From IMG/VR virus record IMGVR_UViG_3300021962_000636, positions 1 to 24,209 of that record: a DNA stretch of 24,209 bases; one strand, 5' to 3'. The notes beneath the pieces were generated by a model. The model ran no database searches. It was given only the letters and a program-made list of their open reading frames with translations, and was not told where the DNA came from. The DNA comes from a virus. A program made the position numbers and the translations under genes. Shown here piece by piece: positions 222 through 7,254 of the stretch. Every line of letters starts with the position of its first letter. The first letter of the stretch is position 1.

Positions 222-1111
222 TAGGTCAAGCCCTCAACAGTGATAGAGGCATCCGATACGGAAGGCCCGGATATGGATATCTGGAAGTCTCGGTAGTAGC
301 CGAACAGGAACGTGCTCTCGTAGCCCTCGGCACCGATCCAGACGACCGGCTGAGCGCGAAGGCTGGCGAGCAGCCGCTGAACTCGCCCGATCTGTGGCGT
401 CTCCACCACAACATCGAACTCAGCGCGCTTACTGAACGAGCGCTCAACCACAACCGAATTGCCGAAGGTGTCTGTTTCCTTACGGCTGTAGTCAGTGATG
501 CCGACTCCAGATCCGTAGACGGCCACGCCAAGCTCTGCCTGGCGCCCCATGACGAGGTGCCCGACTGCTGCGGTATCGCTGGCGTTGTCGATTGTTACGG
601 ACAGGGCGGCGGTGCCGTAGGCTGGAAGGTCCAGCAACACGAAATCCGTCTGCCTGCCGATGGGGTTGAAGAACCACTCGTACCAGTCCGAAACCCCAGC
701 ATCGACCAGAGAGACGGATCGCTGATAAACGATGCCGTCAACTGGATCGGTAAGCGTGACCGTTGCCGACCGACCGAGCAGATTGAACAGCGCCACGGAG
801 TTGATGACAGCACCCGGCTGCAGCTCTACCGCAATGCTGCCCGTTTGCTCCGTGAGCGAGCCCACCCGGTCATCGAACATCCGCCAGCGGTTGGTTGCGC
901 CTAGGTCCAGCCACTTCGGCGGGTCGCTGGTGTCGGTCTCCGGGTTGGCGCCGGTATGGGCTACCAGCGCCTCGTAGTTGCGGTGGTTGTAAGTCACCTT
1001 GTCGCCCACCACGTAGGCCGTTGCCGCGCTCCATGCGGCATAGTCCGTTTCGGGCACGTTGCTACTCGTCAGAATGGCCGGCGTTACTTCCACCGGCTTG
1101 ATTATCCTCAT
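221..1111 (-). CDS. Minor tail protein with a carbohydrate-binding-like segment
   Basis: This 296-residue protein starts at an ATG overlapping the tape measure stop (ATGA). Residues about 24-70 look like a CBM5/12 chitin-binding-type module: an aromatic-rich stretch with AWSAATAYVVGDKVTYN, then NYEALVAHTG and a closing PPKWLDLG. The remainder is beta-rich with many Val/Thr strands and no catalytic motif. Proteins of this size following the tape measure in related phages are tail-tip or baseplate components. A carbohydrate-binding insert there could help the tip touch cell-surface glycans, but that role is inferred from the sequence pattern alone. It is likely co-translated with the tape measure and the fibre-type gene that follows. 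Confidence 0.7.
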   Translation of the reverse strand: MRIIKPVEVTPAILTSSNVPETDYAAWSAATAYVVGDKVTYNHRNYEALVAHTGANPETDTSDPPKWLDLGATNRWRMFDDRVGSLTEQTGSIAVELQPGAVINSVALFNLLGRSATVTLTDPVDGIVYQRSVSLVDAGVSDWYEWFFNPIGRQTDFVLLDLPAYGTAALSVTIDNASDTAAVGHLVMGRQAELGVAVYGSGVGITDYSRKETDTFGNSVVVERSFSKRAEFDVVVETPQIGRVQRLLASLRAQPVVWIGAEGYESTFLFGYYRDFQISISGPSVSDASITVEGLT

Positions 1112-4100
1112 GCGGTTGCCCTCTCTTTAGGCAGGCCGTCGAAGTCCCAGCGCTCAAGGAACTCGACGCGCTTGGCCGTTTGCATCGTGTGTTTTGCGAT
1201 AGATCGGAGTGCCGCGCTCTGCCCTTCGACGGTGCGTTGCAGGCTGGTTATTGCTGCAGTGGAATCTCCCCCACCCAGCATTGCCGCCGTCTGACTTGCG
1301 TTGTAGATGCGCGACGGGCCTGTTACCTCCAGTTCAGGACCGTTCTCGCCAACCAGTCGCAAGCCGCCGCTGTGGAAGCCGCCAGCCGCAAACCCCGGAA
1401 TCTCGCCGTTGACCTTGGCGTCGCGCTCGATGGCTGCAATCAGATCGGCAACGCTCATGCCCGAACTGGCCTGACCCATCCAGTAGCTTTCGCCAGCCGC
1501 GTCAGCCGAGCGCCCAAGTGCCGCCCGATACGCCGCCTCAACCTGATCCTGTACGGACAGGCCGCCTTGGTTTTTCAGGTAGTCCGCAGCTGATCCTGCG
1601 CCGGGGTCATTGGCGTTTTTCGAGGCATCGTTAGCGATGGCTTTCGCCAGCTGGTCGTAGTCGAGATTCCCCGAGGCCAGTTGCTGCTGCCAGAACGCCT
1701 TGCCAGCGTCGTCCGTCTCGCGACCCAACACGCTCTTGTAAACCGAGTCGATCAACGCGGCGTTGTTGGCTGTGGTGTTCTTCGAGGCCAGGCCATCAGC
1801 CATACCGGACAAAGCCGCAACAACCGAAGCGTTCATAGCCGCAATGGCTGCCTCTACGGATTTCACGCTGTTGTCGATGCCGTTGAGCGCGTCGAGCTGC
1901 GCCTGGGCGAAGTCGAGTTCTGCATTAAGCTGCGCCGACTGCCTCTCAAGCTCCTTGAGCAACAACTGCTCAGCCGTCAGCTGCTTGCCGTTGACCTTCT
2001 CCAGTTCAGTAATCAGGTTGGCCGTGCGCCCCTGCTCCCGCTCGAATTGCTCGAGCGAGCCATACATGGCCGTGTCCATTTGCGAGGCGGTATCGAGCGC
2101 GTCCTGTAGCCCCTCGAACCCTGCCAGCGACTGACCCGACCGCGCCTGTACCAGCGCACTGTTGAGCGTCATGGTGGCCTGAGCGCGCAGCATCCGAACG
2201 GTCTCGTCCGATGTGCCGCGCAGCCGCTTGAGTGCCGCATCCAGCGAAGTGCTCACGCCGGTCAAGGCGCTGATATTCGACGCTGTAGCGCTCGCTGCCT
2301 GCTGGATCTCCTGTTGCTGGGCTGCGATTGACCGCTGAAGTGCGGCGTATGCAGTATCGACAGCGCCAAACAGTGCCGCATTTGCAGCCGCTGTTGCCTG
2401 CGCGGCCTGCTGTTCAACAATGCTGAAATACTGCGCGGCCTGACCAGACAGCGCCATCAGCGTGGCGAACATTTCCTGCCCGGCCTGGGTGGTCAGGTCG
2501 ATATCCTCGACCATCGCCCGGTAGGCCTCGCGGGAACCAACCAGCTCCACGTCAGCAGACTCGAAAGCCCGCTTGATGGAATCTACCGTGTCCTCGATCT
2601 TTTCGGCCTCTGTGAAGAAGGCCGCGTAGTAGGTCTGCGAGTTTGTAGCCAGCGCATCCAGGCCACCCGATGCAGCGGCCAGCGACTCAGCCAGCTTGCC
2701 ACCCGCTACAGTCATGTCGTACATCGACACGTCGAGATAGCGCAGAATCTCGTTGACGCCCTGGAGGTTGCCGACGAAAGCTTGCATCCCTGCTAGGTCG
2801 TAATCCAGGCCGGTGGCGAAGACACGATTCAGCTCAGCATTCATGGCCTCGGCAGTTTTGCCGAACCACTCGCTGATCGCCTCGCTGATCTCCTCCTCGG
2901 TTTTTCCGCTGGTACTGATCTTCTCGCGGGCGAGCTGTAGTCCGGCGAGCGATCCTTCCTCAACAGTCAGGCTCAACTGCTCGAAGACGGATGCAACGGT
3001 GTCTTCGGTCGCGTCAAATGCCGACTGGAACTGCGCGGCTGTCTCCTCATCCAGTGCCGAATACTTGTAACGACGCTTGGTTGAGCCGAACAGACCGCCA
3101 TCTTTCTTCTGGTACTCGTAAGACTGCCCGAGGAAATCGCCGCCCTCGACGCCAAGAGCAAGGCCCGCACTCTTGGTCTGCCAATCGCCGCCGAAAATTT
3201 TAGATCCGCCGATAGAGCCGAGAATCCCGCCCAGCACCGCGCCAACGGCTGTACCGATGGGGCCGAAATAGCTGCCCATCGCCGCGCCGGCCTTGGCACC
3301 ACCCCAGCCGCCAAGGCCGCCAGCAACGGCCCCCTTGGCGCCTGCGTTTTGGTAACCCATGTATGCGCCGGCAGCGGCACTGGCCCAGGGGGCGTAAGCG
3401 CCTGCGGTTGCCCCGGCATTCTGCTGGGCAACCCAGCTGGAATACTGAGCGCCGGTATAGCCGGCCTGAGACGCGCCGAGCGCTTGCGAGCCACCAGCCG
3501 CCCAGTTGGCGTAAGCCTGCCCGGTGTAGCCGGCGATGTTTGATCCGCTGCCGTATCCTAGCGCGCCGGATATTGAGTTGTAGGCTCCGGAGAACATATC
3601 CCCGTAGTAGCCGGTCACGCCGTTATAGGCGCCTGTCAGCCCCCCGTTCTGCCAGCCTGTGTAGGCAGCCTGCCCCCAGCCGGTAAGCGCGCTGTAGGCT
3701 GACTGGCCGTAGCTGGCAAGCTGGCCGTAGTTGATTCCGCCAGCCGAGCCGCCGCCCATCATGCTCACAGCCTGCCCTGCGCTGCCGCCAATCCCCATCG
3801 CCGCGCCGATCTGCATGATGATCGGCTTGGTAATGGCCATGTGAGCCAGCTCGGCCAACATCTGCTTGAAGGCGTCAGTGAGCGAGTCGCGGAACGAGCT
3901 GAACCCGTCCCCGATGTTGCGCCAGGCGTCAGCAAAGGCCGAATCAACGCGGTCTAGCGCGCCTTCGGTCCATTGCGCCCAGTCGGAAGTTGCGCGGGTG
4001 TTTTCTTCGTACTCATCTCCAAGCAACGCCAATGCGCGCCGGTACTCGTCCGCGCGCTCCGGGTATCGCTCCATGGCGTCGGTGAGCAGTTTCTGCTCGT

Positions 4101-5601
4101 CGGCATAGTCGCGGGTCGCCTTGCTGATCGGATCGAGGCGATCCATGACGGCCTGAACCTGATCATTGACGCGCTTGATGGCCTCGTCGGCCTTATTGGT
4201 ATCCTCGTTGAACTTGTCCCAGATGGGTTTATTCAGGTCGGTGTAGAGCCCTTGGACGACCTTCTGGTATTGCTCGGTGGTGTATTTGTTCTTGCGCAGC
4301 GCTTCATCAGCGAGTTCGATGCCCTTTTCGTACTCGGCCTGGGCCTTGGCGGCCGGGTCGTATTTGGCAACCAGAGCGTCAAGTGACTTCAGCTTCTCAT
4401 CGATCGCTTTCTTCTGGTCGTCTGCAGATTTCTTTGCAGCTGCACCGAGCTGGACGCTTGATTCTGAAACGGTACGATTTACCTCTACGGCCCGTTTGCC
4501 GGCATCGGCGTACTCGCCCGTCCAGAGCTTCTTGATTCGCTGCTCGGCCTGCGCGGTGGCGGCCTCGTTGTCTGCCGTAAACTGGTCGATGATCGAGCTG
4601 GCTTGCGAGAACTCCATGCTGGCCGCAGCAGAAGCCGCCGCTGCCAGGCCGCCAATGGCGCGCCCTAGGTTGGCAAAAGTCGTCGATAGGCCGATAGCCA
4701 CCGTCGCAACGCCTTTCAGCACGACGCCAAGCGCATCGCCAATGACCGATGCGGCTTCGGAATCCTGGGCAAAGTCGATAAGCAAGCCATTCAACTCGCT
4801 CAGCGCTGGCAAGGCCTCGGTAGCAATCTGCGTGCCGAACCCGCCCGCCGCCATTTTTGCGGTGTCCATCTGGGCGTTGAACTGATCGAACTGCTTGAGC
4901 GTTTTCTCGCTCATGACCAGCCCTAGGCGCTCCGCTTCGTCAGCCATGGCCGAAAAGCCTGCTCCACCATCTCGAAGCAGCGGAATCAAGGCGGTGGTCT
5001 CGTCCGCCATGGATTCCATGTAGAAGGTCATCTCAGCCTGAGAGAGATTTGCTTTCTCCAGGCTGTTGTAAAACAGTTGCAGCGACTGGGGGCCAGAGAG
5101 CTTGCGGAACTGTTCGGCGGTGACTCCGATACGAGGCGCGATGTTCTCGAAGAAGTCTTTCATTTCGCCGCCGCCAGTGGTGAGGAAGTCACCCACGCGG
5201 TCGTTTACGTCTTTCAGAATATCAGCGAGCTTTTCCTGCTCGACGCCAACTGTTTTGGCGCCGACTGCATAACGCTGAAACTCGGTCGTCGAGGCATTCG
5301 CAACCTGAGACAGGTTCTGGATTTCCCGCGCCGAGTTCGCCGTGCTTACAACGAGCGCACCAAGGCCCGCAACACCTCCTGCGGCAGCCGCAGTGATGCC
5401 AGCCATAGCAGAGCCGATAGCCTTGCGCGATTGCTCAGCATTCAGCCCCATACGGGCAAACGCCTTATCGACCAGCCCCAGCTCTTTGTCGATCTTACTG
5501 GATGACCCAGAGACGGCGCGGTCAGCCGCAGCTAGCTCTTTCCTCAGCTGCATGGTGGTCGCCTCGATGCGCACGAGCAGGGTTGCGGCGTCTTGGGCCA
5601 T
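1108..5601 (-). CDS. Tape measure protein
   Basis: This is a 1497-residue protein starting at the ATG at 5601-5599. The frame is open further upstream to 5751, but this start has a strong ribosome binding site (AGAGGA, 7 bases before ATG), and a longer form would run back through a terminator hairpin. Tape measure proteins set tail length and fill the tail tube. Visible features are a coiled-coil N-terminal region (MAQDAATLLVRIEATT), hydrophobic Ala/Gly helices around residues 75-95 and 320-360, and a long Gly/Ala/Tyr-rich stretch at about 612-800. Two similar repeats of DUF4214 type (YKSVLGRETDDAG and YRAALGRSADAAG) lie near residues 1287 and 1358, followed by the usual C-terminal GLRLVGENGPELEV motif. 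Length, position after the frameshifted chaperones and the C-terminal motif make the call firm. The repeat assignment is by eye. Confidence 0.95.
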   Translation of the reverse strand: MAQDAATLLVRIEATTMQLRKELAAADRAVSGSSSKIDKELGLVDKAFARMGLNAEQSRKAIGSAMAGITAAAAGGVAGLGALVVSTANSAREIQNLSQVANASTTEFQRYAVGAKTVGVEQEKLADILKDVNDRVGDFLTTGGGEMKDFFENIAPRIGVTAEQFRKLSGPQSLQLFYNSLEKANLSQAEMTFYMESMADETTALIPLLRDGGAGFSAMADEAERLGLVMSEKTLKQFDQFNAQMDTAKMAAGGFGTQIATEALPALSELNGLLIDFAQDSEAASVIGDALGVVLKGVATVAIGLSTTFANLGRAIGGLAAAASAAASMEFSQASSIIDQFTADNEAATAQAEQRIKKLWTGEYADAGKRAVEVNRTVSESSVQLGAAAKKSADDQKKAIDEKLKSLDALVAKYDPAAKAQAEYEKGIELADEALRKNKYTTEQYQKVVQGLYTDLNKPIWDKFNEDTNKADEAIKRVNDQVQAVMDRLDPISKATRDYADEQKLLTDAMERYPERADEYRRALALLGDEYEENTRATSDWAQWTEGALDRVDSAFADAWRNIGDGFSSFRDSLTDAFKQMLAELAHMAITKPIIMQIGAAMGIGGSAGQAVSMMGGGSAGGINYGQLASYGQSAYSALTGWGQAAYTGWQNGGLTGAYNGVTGYYGDMFSGAYNSISGALGYGSGSNIAGYTGQAYANWAAGGSQALGASQAGYTGAQYSSWVAQQNAGATAGAYAPWASAAAGAYMGYQNAGAKGAVAGGLGGWGGAKAGAAMGSYFGPIGTAVGAVLGGILGSIGGSKIFGGDWQTKSAGLALGVEGGDFLGQSYEYQKKDGGLFGSTKRRYKYSALDEETAAQFQSAFDATEDTVASVFEQLSLTVEEGSLAGLQLAREKISTSGKTEEEISEAISEWFGKTAEAMNAELNRVFATGLDYDLAGMQAFVGNLQGVNEILRYLDVSMYDMTVAGGKLAESLAAASGGLDALATNSQTYYAAFFTEAEKIEDTVDSIKRAFESADVELVGSREAYRAMVEDIDLTTQAGQEMFATLMALSGQAAQYFSIVEQQAAQATAAANAALFGAVDTAYAALQRSIAAQQQEIQQAASATASNISALTGVSTSLDAALKRLRGTSDETVRMLRAQATMTLNSALVQARSGQSLAGFEGLQDALDTASQMDTAMYGSLEQFEREQGRTANLITELEKVNGKQLTAEQLLLKELERQSAQLNAELDFAQAQLDALNGIDNSVKSVEAAIAAMNASVVAALSGMADGLASKNTTANNAALIDSVYKSVLGRETDDAGKAFWQQQLASGNLDYDQLAKAIANDASKNANDPGAGSAADYLKNQGGLSVQDQVEAAYRAALGRSADAAGESYWMGQASSGMSVADLIAAIERDAKVNGEIPGFAAGGFHSGGLRLVGENGPELEVTGPSRIYNASQTAAMLGGGDSTAAITSLQRTVEGQSAALRSIAKHTMQTAKRVEFLERWDFDGLPKERATA

Positions 5602-5620: not shown

Positions 5621-5644
5621 AAAAAAACCGCCCGGAGGCGGTTT
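5621..5644 (-). terminator. Intrinsic terminator before the tape measure gene
   Basis: On the minus strand an 8-bp perfect stem (AAACCGCC / GGCGGTTT, loop TCCG) is followed by four more T residues. It lies between the stop of the membrane coiled-coil gene at 5667 and the tape measure start at 5601. A terminator inside a late operon must be read through by antiterminated polymerase. It fits a separately transcribed moron unit upstream. Confidence 0.8.
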
Positions 5645-5666
5645 ATAGGTATTGGTTGATCTGTTG

Positions 5667-6626
5667 CTAAATAGCGTCGACGCAAGCTGACATGTGTTCT
5701 TTTGCTCCAGTTAAGCTCACCCGCATATACTCTGGCGCCCCTGACGGCCACTCAACTACCTTATATGTCAGGAACTTCCCTCCTGCGACAATTTGGCCAA
5801 ACAGCTCACTATAGCCAGCCCCGTAGACTCTCCCTTCGCCGCTAACTGGCGGATTCTGGTCGACCCGAAACACCACATCGCGCCCCGGGTACGTGTCGCC
5901 TACCACCCCAAGCATTCCCTGCATGGCAGATATGGTTGTCTGCATGGCTCCAAGGACATTCGCTTGGTTGGCGAAATAGGCGCCAACAAGGATCGCAACT
6001 ACAGCTAACAACTGAACCCCAACCGCAGCCCAGTAATTAGACTTAACAGTGGCGGCTTGCTTTGCAGCTTCCTCCGCCCCCTCAGCGGCCTTGGTCACTC
6101 GCTCCGCCAGCAGCTCATAGCGCTTGTCGCGCTCTGATTGTCCGGCAAGAAATCCGTCGATCTTCTCAGATACCAAAGCTATCCGGCCGTCCATCCGAGC
6201 TTCGATTGCCTCAAGCTTCGCGTCTAGCTCAGGGCGCGTTAGTGCATCACTCATTGGCGCCTCCTTTCCAGCGCGGGGTTTTGAATCAGTATGGGATTCG
6301 ACCGCAGAACCGTCCACTTGATCTTCCACGCGCACCCACCCGGGCGGTGGGCCGAACTCTTCCATCCATTTAAGCTGGGACGCCCGGGCCTCTTCTATAG
6401 CCCTGTCAAATATTCTCTGTGCTTCTTCGAGAGGAAGCGCGCCTTCAGTGCGCTCCCTTGTATTAGCTAAGGCCTGCTTAGCCTCCTCATTAAGCGCTTT
6501 GGCCCTTTCGAGAAGGGCCTCCTTGCTTTCATCACCCTGCGGGTTATGTGGCCTTGCTTTTATCGCCATGTCCGTAGCGCCGCTAAAGAGATGCTGCACT
6601 TTACCAAGCATGATGCCGAGGCGCAT
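5667..6626 (-). CDS. Membrane-anchored coiled-coil protein of unknown function (moron candidate)
   Basis: This frame encodes up to 319 residues. I do not recognise a family. Possible starts are ATG 6626 (weak GAGG 12 bases upstream) and ATG 6569 (no clear site). Residues about 35-90 are charged and helical. Residues 126-190 form a heptad-like coiled coil rich in Ala, Glu, Lys and Arg. Residues 198-219 are a single hydrophobic membrane segment (VQLLAVVAILVGAYFANQ). The last 100 residues look globular (VVEWPSGAPEYMRVSL). A second, much better start lies in frame at ATG 6254 (see the ribosome binding site entry), which would give a 195-residue form. Codon use looks less GC-rich than in the flanking tail genes. 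With a terminator just downstream and no structural role expected between chaperone and tape measure, it resembles a moron, perhaps acting on the host envelope. That role is inference. Confidence 0.65.
   Translation of the reverse strand: MRLGIMLGKVQHLFSGATDMAIKARPHNPQGDESKEALLERAKALNEEAKQALANTRERTEGALPLEEAQRIFDRAIEEARASQLKWMEEFGPPPGWVRVEDQVDGSAVESHTDSKPRAGKEAPMSDALTRPELDAKLEAIEARMDGRIALVSEKIDGFLAGQSERDKRYELLAERVTKAAEGAEEAAKQAATVKSNYWAAVGVQLLAVVAILVGAYFANQANVLGAMQTTISAMQGMLGVVGDTYPGRDVVFRVDQNPPVSGEGRVYGAGYSELFGQIVAGGKFLTYKVVEWPSGAPEYMRVSLTGAKEHMSACVDAI
6260..6266 (-). promoter_or_regulatory. Strong internal ribosome binding site
   Basis: On the minus strand AAGGAGG sits 5 bases before an in-frame ATG at 6254-6252, at codon 125 of the 319-residue frame. 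It is far stronger than the site of either upstream start. It would start a 195-residue protein (MSDALTRPEL...) that keeps the coiled coil, membrane segment and C-terminal domain. Either this is the real start of an older separate gene now fused to an upstream ORF, or two nested products are made. Confidence 0.65.
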
Positions 6627-6670: not shown

Positions 6671-7254
6671 CTACTTCCCAGCACCGCGCAGCAGCGCCTT
6701 CATCTGCTCGGGCTTGCGTGCGTTGCCGTCGTCTTCCTTCTTGCCTTGCCCGAACGGGTTGGTGGCTTGCAGGAACTGAATCTTTGACTCATACGCGAGC
6801 AGGATCTCGGGTATCGGCGTCGACCACGCCACAGCGGGCGCCCATCCGAGCCAGCCGGTAGCCAGCCCGTAGAGATGGTCGACGTAGCTGCCGTCCTTTA
6901 CTGCGCTGGTTTTGCCCGAGTCTTTTTTACGTTTCCCGACTCTTCCTCTGGCTTGGCGTCAGAGGGGTTGAGCAGCGCAACGACATAGGGCACGACCTGC
7001 GCCGTCACGTCAGCCACGCCAGCCGCGAAGACGGCTTCCGGCACTTCCTTTGCCTCTTTCGGGGAGAGGTTCGCACCTGCAACGATGATATGGCTCACCA
7101 CATCCACACTCAGCGAGCCGAGGCCGTCGAGCGCCGGACGAAGGCCGCCGAAGCGCTGCTCAATTTTGCGGACTGCGGAGAGAGTAGGCTCCAGTTCAAA
7201 CTCGAACTCGCCAACGGTTACAGTGGTCTTGCCGTACAGGGTCGTACTTGTCAT
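6671..7254 (-). CDS. Tail assembly chaperone, -1 frameshift fusion (lambda GT type)
   Basis: A -1 slip at 6928-6922 joins the first 111 residues of the upstream chaperone to 83 residues in the overlapping frame, giving a protein of about 194 residues that ends at a TAG at 6673-6671. I translated the second frame base by base and it is open throughout. It contains GWLGWAPAVAW, TPIPEILLAYE and QFLQATNPFG, then a charged tail (GKKEDDGNARKPEQMK). Trp/Pro-rich second domains of this kind are usual in GT-type proteins, which bring the tape measure and tail tube together before tail polymerisation. No independent start with a good ribosome site was seen for this domain, which fits production only by frameshift. 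The coordinates span both frames, so a plain translation of this interval fails. Confidence 0.88.
6898..7254 (-). CDS. Tail assembly chaperone, zero-frame product (lambda G type)
   Basis: This 118-residue product results when the ribosome does not slip. It starts TSTTLYGKTTVTVGEFEFEL, continues with a helical region (LSAVRKIEQRFGGLRPAL) and ends with a Lys-rich tail (KKTRAKPAQ). It lies between the tail tube and tape measure genes, the fixed position of G/GT genes in siphophages, and its size fits the family. It coats the tape measure during tail assembly and is absent from the finished virion. The slippery heptamer lies 8 codons before its stop. The family call rests on position and the frameshift rather than on a strong sequence motif. 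Confidence 0.88.
   Translation of the reverse strand: MTSTTLYGKTTVTVGEFEFELEPTLSAVRKIEQRFGGLRPALDGLGSLSVDVVSHIIVAGANLSPKEAKEVPEAVFAAGVADVTAQVVPYVVALLNPSDAKPEEESGNVKKTRAKPAQ
6922..6928 (-). other. Programmed -1 ribosomal frameshift site (A AAA AAG)
   Basis: On the minus strand the bases read GTA AAA AAG in the chaperone frame, so A AAA AAG is in the exact X XXY YYZ register for a -1 slip. This is one of the most efficient heptamers known in bacteria. After the slip reading continues at GAC and stays open for 83 codons. No strong stimulatory hairpin was worked out downstream. Confidence 0.88.

Follow-up and report, generated by a model that had tools for sequence, protein, structure and literature searches.

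A moron in the tail chaperone–tape measure slot of a Pseudomonas-type siphophage, and its relatives beside phage repressor genes

In phage lambda, rexAB lies downstream of cI, so that genes expressed in the lysogen, one of them for a membrane protein, stand behind the repressor gene. In P22, the SieB gene lies in the immunity region and gives a shorter in-frame product, Esc, from an internal start. In HK97, gp15, a predicted inner-membrane protein of 62 amino acids (aa), is encoded, with its own terminator, after the T frameshift product and before the tape measure, and hybrids that have a different tail tube and tape measure escape its exclusion (PMC10883804). Tab of Pseudomonas phage JBD26, an 83-aa product of a late-operon moron expressed by the prophage, acts on the tape measure and blocks tail assembly (PMC10884400). 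Here we describe an open reading frame (ORF), 5667–6626 on the minus strand, of a viral DNA of 24,209 nucleotides (nt) (IMG/VR record IMGVR_UViG_3300021962_000636, positions 1 to 24,209; the whole stretch is called the window). The ORF is placed between the frameshifted tail chaperone (G/T) and the tape-measure gene, the slot that gp15 occupies in HK97, and an initial annotation made from the letters of the window had termed it a moron-like unit.

The cargo slot between tail chaperone and tape measure

The slot, the presence or absence of genes in it, the gene family, promoter conservation in relatives, the terminator and the Shine-Dalgarno (SD) sites were computed. In the direction of transcription on the minus strand, the window runs from the major tail protein through chaperone G, the T extension, the ORF and a terminator to the tape measure:

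6898–7254, minus: tail chaperone G (match to phrog_6454, 3e-35)
6928–6922, minus: slippery A-AAA-AAG at the end of G, from translation and relatives
End at 6671, minus: T extension in the -1 frame, 79–99% identical in close relatives
5667–6626, minus: moron ORF, long form of 319 aa from ATG 6626, with a weak and distant SD
5644–5625, minus: intrinsic terminator, 8-bp stem and U run
1108–5601, minus: tape-measure gene, start at ATG 5601, on the right of the slot (phrog_2854, 1e-94)

The family matches of the chaperone and the tape measure bear out that an extra gene separates the two, as the initial annotation had proposed. The ORF is open and intact over its 319 codons, and its less GC-rich codon use, also proposed there, was seen in a GC content at third codon positions (GC3) of 0.569 against 0.67–0.83 in most neighbours. 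The claim of a terminator of its own also stood: the site at 5644–5625 is strong (-13.7 kcal/mol, z -3.4 against shuffles), but it is not peculiar to this unit, as every close relative with a located tape-measure start also has a terminator shortly before the tape measure, with a different stem. Taken together, the terminator-like sites in the 5.5 kb scanned did not outnumber those of shuffled sequences, and the case for the terminator therefore lies in the strength and position of this one site.

A chaperone 91–97% identical to G was found at 15 loci on 14 contigs, and no match to the ORF was found in these 15 loci; wherever the T extension was covered, other cargo followed it. This cargo included Imm_superinfect proteins (L031–L035 type and L037; PF14373, 2.5e-18 and 1.3e-17), accompanied in L037 by a DUF4236 protein, lipoprotein-like proteins (L036, L038, L040, L042), a transmembrane (TM) protein whose tail resembles a zinc ribbon (L030) and an insert of 2.9 kb (L044). 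Further afield, phages 5400 and CF183a have the slot without an insert, and phage VW-6S carries a 307-aa lipoprotein-like gene there. Chaperone homologues were present in 34 of 398 Pseudomonas genomes. Among 30 Pseudomonas prophage loci inspected by eye, T and the tape measure were nearly adjacent in about 13 and two loci were unclear, while in 15 the intervening gene was predicted to encode a TM protein, a lipoprotein or an exported protein, by a crude check of hydropathy and lipobox.

A moron, by the definition used here (PMC4378225), is inserted between genes that are adjacent in related phages, which is the arrangement seen in 5400, CF183a and about 13 of the 30 prophage loci; the deviating composition and the terminator agree with the same definition. 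Since the gene is absent in close relatives, the slot is empty elsewhere, GC3 deviates, and the unit has its own terminator and a plausible promoter of its own (see below), its assignment as a moron in a recurrent cargo slot of a Pseudomonas-type siphophage is well supported. The gene is also not found at this place in all relatives, an outcome that the initial annotation had named as speaking against its reading. The ORF runs with the late operon in which it lies, and its long form comes directly after T; a late gene that serves tail assembly or the virion and is expressed with the late operon alone would suit this arrangement. However, all close relatives lack the ORF and have unrelated genes instead, the slot is empty in other phages, and members of the family adjoin a repressor gene, so that we regard a late structural or assembly role as very unlikely.

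Some further observations concern the slot and its surroundings. In L030 (5611–5805) and L039 (5622–5921), small slot ORFs resemble the C-terminal end of the tape measure (39–47% identity over about 60 residues) and are possibly decoys or recombination remnants. In L031, L036, L037, L038, L040 and L042, a conserved leader, TGCTACATTGGCCCTTTCT..GGGAGG, with an extended -10-like TGCTACATT, stands just after the T stop and precedes cargo genes of unrelated kinds; such a leader might serve as a promoter common to several morons or as an anchor for recombination. L036, L040, L044, L096, L097, L111 and L119 each have a small cargo protein, exported or a lipoprotein, that bears a motif of the type V(N/S)(A/S)KNSxGGYxGF; for those of these proteins that were tested, neither Pfam nor NCBIfam named a family. 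In the window, the tape measure has a DUF4214 near its C-terminus, and the gene after it (221–1111) carries a carbohydrate-binding module (PF02839, 1.6e-9).

A gene family of the repressor operon with a promoter inside the reading frame

The ORF had no significant match in Pfam (Imm_superinfect PF14373 was not among its Pfam matches), PADLOC or NCBIfam, its PHROGs match was marginal (0.0016), and a direct search of the phage collection with it gave no match. A block of coiled coil and TM helix (residues ~125–237) was found in 28 viral contigs at 37–81% identity. In 26 of these, a homologue of the CI-type repressor genes of L005 and L010 (phrog_4) was placed upstream on the same strand. Judged by gene order, the usual viral home of the family is directly downstream of a CI-like repressor gene. 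The two genes are usually separated by a small protein, mostly with two CxxC-like motifs (L010 5631–5924, L005 5433–5822 and others), which may be a partner of the family gene.

The two exceptions, L002 and L003, have the family gene in a slot of 5.6 kb, flanked by a tail chaperone of another type than G (phrog_313) and by a tape-measure gene, and the core of the window copy is 77% identical to these copies. The family gene has thus entered the tail slots of two phage lineages. The 5.6-kb slot also holds antirepressor and lipoprotein-like genes, so lysogeny regulators travel in the tail slot too. Outside phages, many Pseudomonas genomes have chromosomal members of the family, which form a clade, between a LysR-type regulator and a pirin gene (example: L121 7719–8183; other chromosomal loci are among L065–L090).

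Before residue 125 the aligned homologues have little in common, although an open frame extends for about 30–125 codons through this region, and Met 125 is invariant in the 26 aligned sequences. From the alignment, the family is modular, with a variable N-terminus, the invariant internal Met and a conserved coiled-coil/TM core. Before the Met codon, xTGACA at -35 to -30 and xATACT at -12 to -7 are conserved at a spacing of 17 bp. These boxes have the form of a sigma70-type promoter, from which RNA would be expected to start on the A of the internal AUG, that is, leaderless. When 350 positions were scored with general sigma70 weights, the leaderless position was best in 15 of 24 cI-linked copies and among the top five in 21, and a strict promoter pattern occurred in 14 of the 24 at this offset and once elsewhere (600 nt of each copy). 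The most conserved wobble positions are those inside the -35 and -10 boxes, and the Thr codon in the -10 box is ACT in 13 of 13 cases, against 60 of 290 elsewhere. Pairwise identity of the flanking DNA (-100 to -37) is 25% at the median, and common descent of the flank therefore does not explain the conserved promoter.

The motif recurs in phage copies that were not used to define it (L051, L124, L126, L127, L128, L129 and L131); L026 and L028 are without it, and in the chromosomal clade its -10 box is altered. Internal initiation throughout the family by a conserved SD was also considered and rejected, as SD strength before the internal Met was no better than at control codons; a strong SD precedes it only in the tail-slot copies (window, L002 and L003). 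A narrow literature search limited to open papers found no description of a repressor operon with an internal promoter for a leaderless mRNA.

The window copy and its predicted protein

The initial annotation had seen no convincing promoter in front of the gene. A candidate exists inside the ORF (6316–6288), before a second start codon, ATG 6254, with a much better SD:

6316–6311, minus: candidate -35 box TGGACG (consensus of relatives xTGACA)
6293–6288, minus: candidate -10 box CATACT after a 17-bp spacer; RNA start expected near 6281
6269–6260, minus: SD GGAAAGGAGG, duplex -11.6 kcal/mol, common to L002 and L003
5667–6254, minus: short form, 195 aa, from the internal Met (residue 125), which is invariant in the aligned family

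By its sequence, this is probably a weaker version of the promoter of the relatives. The -10 box is 33 nt from ATG 6254, and the leader from the expected RNA start is about 27 nt long; L002 and L003 have the SD in common with the window, but not the -10 box. In the tail-slot copies, the leaderless start seems to have been replaced by a normal leader with an SD. The SD of the long form at ATG 6626 is weaker and distant; an RNA hairpin over this ATG was rejected as no better than shuffles (z -0.8). Given the weaker promoter, the leader, the strong SD and ATG 6254, the short form is probably made from the prophage.

The predicted protein has the following parts:

6318–6524, minus: N-terminal helical part (residues 35–103), partly common to L004 and L011, otherwise variable in the family
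6054–6236, minus: long helix or coiled coil (residues 131–191)
5961–6035, minus: single TM helix (residues ~198–222; maximum Kyte-Doolittle hydropathy 2.27 at residue 201)
5670–5915, minus: C-terminal extension (residues 238–319), only in the window copy, with a low-confidence model

The AlphaFold2 model (mean predicted local distance difference test 66, predicted template modelling score 0.27) has N-terminal helices, a disordered stretch at 106–118, the long helix 131–191, the TM helix and an uncertain C-terminal beta-hairpin with a helix. The one TM helix and the long helix agree with the earlier description as a membrane coiled-coil gene, and the promoter codons lie in and beside the disordered stretch. 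The C-terminal 82 residues, probably periplasmic, had no relatives in viral contigs, plasmids or the 398 Pseudomonas genomes. An extension without relatives and a partly eroded promoter are what a decaying passenger without function might show, but the frame is intact over all its codons, the core has kept its identity to L002 and L003, and a strong SD and a terminator are present; we consider decay highly improbable.

Possible role in the lysogen

The explanation that we consider most likely, although with no better than even confidence, is a moron with a probable promoter and terminator of its own whose short form, made from the prophage, acts as an inner-membrane superinfection-exclusion protein. 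The promoter at 6316–6288 would fire in the otherwise silent prophage, giving an RNA that starts near 6281 and ends at 5644–5625, and the leader with its strong SD would probably direct translation from ATG 6254. The 195-aa product would insert with its N-terminus inside and C-terminus outside, leaving the coiled coil in the cytoplasm and the unique C-terminus in the periplasm. Siphophage tape-measure proteins are thought to work in the periplasm during genome entry. The C-terminus could meet those of incoming siphophages there and hinder genome entry of related long-tailed phages, an effect that gp15 of HK97 has from the same slot. As family relatives lie beside a repressor gene, the gene probably protects the host of the dormant phage from other phages.

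By analogy, a change of the lysogen envelope or a block of superinfection would both fit the cI-linked relatives and the company at this site, with envelope-type cargo, Imm_superinfect and HK97 gp15. Lysogenic conversion or host fitness (envelope change, stress) instead of exclusion is a possible but unlikely function of the moron; the chromosomal relatives outside phages would agree with it, as would slot cargo such as lipoproteins and other uncharacterised envelope proteins, whereas the repressor-linked phage relatives and the occurrence of Imm_superinfect and gp15 at this slot favour exclusion. A later-acting defence, in which tail assembly of the invader is blocked via the tape measure as by Tab, is improbable in our estimation. 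The adjoining tape-measure gene, the long coiled coil on the cytoplasmic side and the precedent of Tab, a prophage-expressed late-operon moron of Pseudomonas, point towards it (PMC10884400), but Tab is small and not described as membrane-bound, the ORF has a TM helix, and the cI-linked relatives lie far from tail genes. Compared by description, Tab also differs in its late-operon position.

Among the other described systems, gp15 shares with the ORF its slot, its own terminator and a predicted inner-membrane location, and differs in its length of 62 aa; we know of no nested form or repressor-linked relatives of gp15. SieB/Esc resembles the family in the internal start, but in the family relatives the short form has its own leaderless-type promoter and variation is mostly N-terminal. 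rexAB, set apart by description, shares the position of lysogen genes behind a repressor gene and differs in proteins and topology.

Several points weigh against exclusion by a prophage-made short form. The window promoter, TGGACG-N17-CATACT (6316–6288), fits just 8 of 12 consensus positions, and it therefore fell under the threshold of the initial promoter scan. The N-in/C-out topology was deduced only from a lysine before the TM helix, and use of the window promoter, expression in the lysogen, exclusion and its mechanism are likewise steps that we infer. The PADLOC search of the ORF was without a match, no alignment was obtained between the ORF and HK97 gp15, and the ORF has no sequence similarity to SieB (E = 20). 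The clade between LysR-type regulator and pirin genes means that the family may have another basic function.

More tentatively, the family as a whole might be a nested exclusion system, a notion that we hold to be less probable than not by a good measure. A long form with an interchangeable N-terminus would come from the repressor operon and serve as effector or sensor; the internal leaderless-type promoter would supply a short membrane form as anchor or antidote, like SieB/Esc although wired differently; on moving to the tail operon, the leaderless start would have been swapped for an SD start.

The moron and its slot are of a known kind, whereas the libraries and the narrow search of open papers yielded no description of the gene family, of its transfer between the repressor operon and the tail slot, or of the in-frame leaderless-type promoter. 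The cargo slot of Pseudomonas phages can be mined for uncharacterised exclusion genes, and one gene family connects this slot with the repressor operon. The internal promoter, conserved at wobble positions between flanks at chance identity, can be tested directly as an example of a leaderless gene that lies in frame within another coding sequence.
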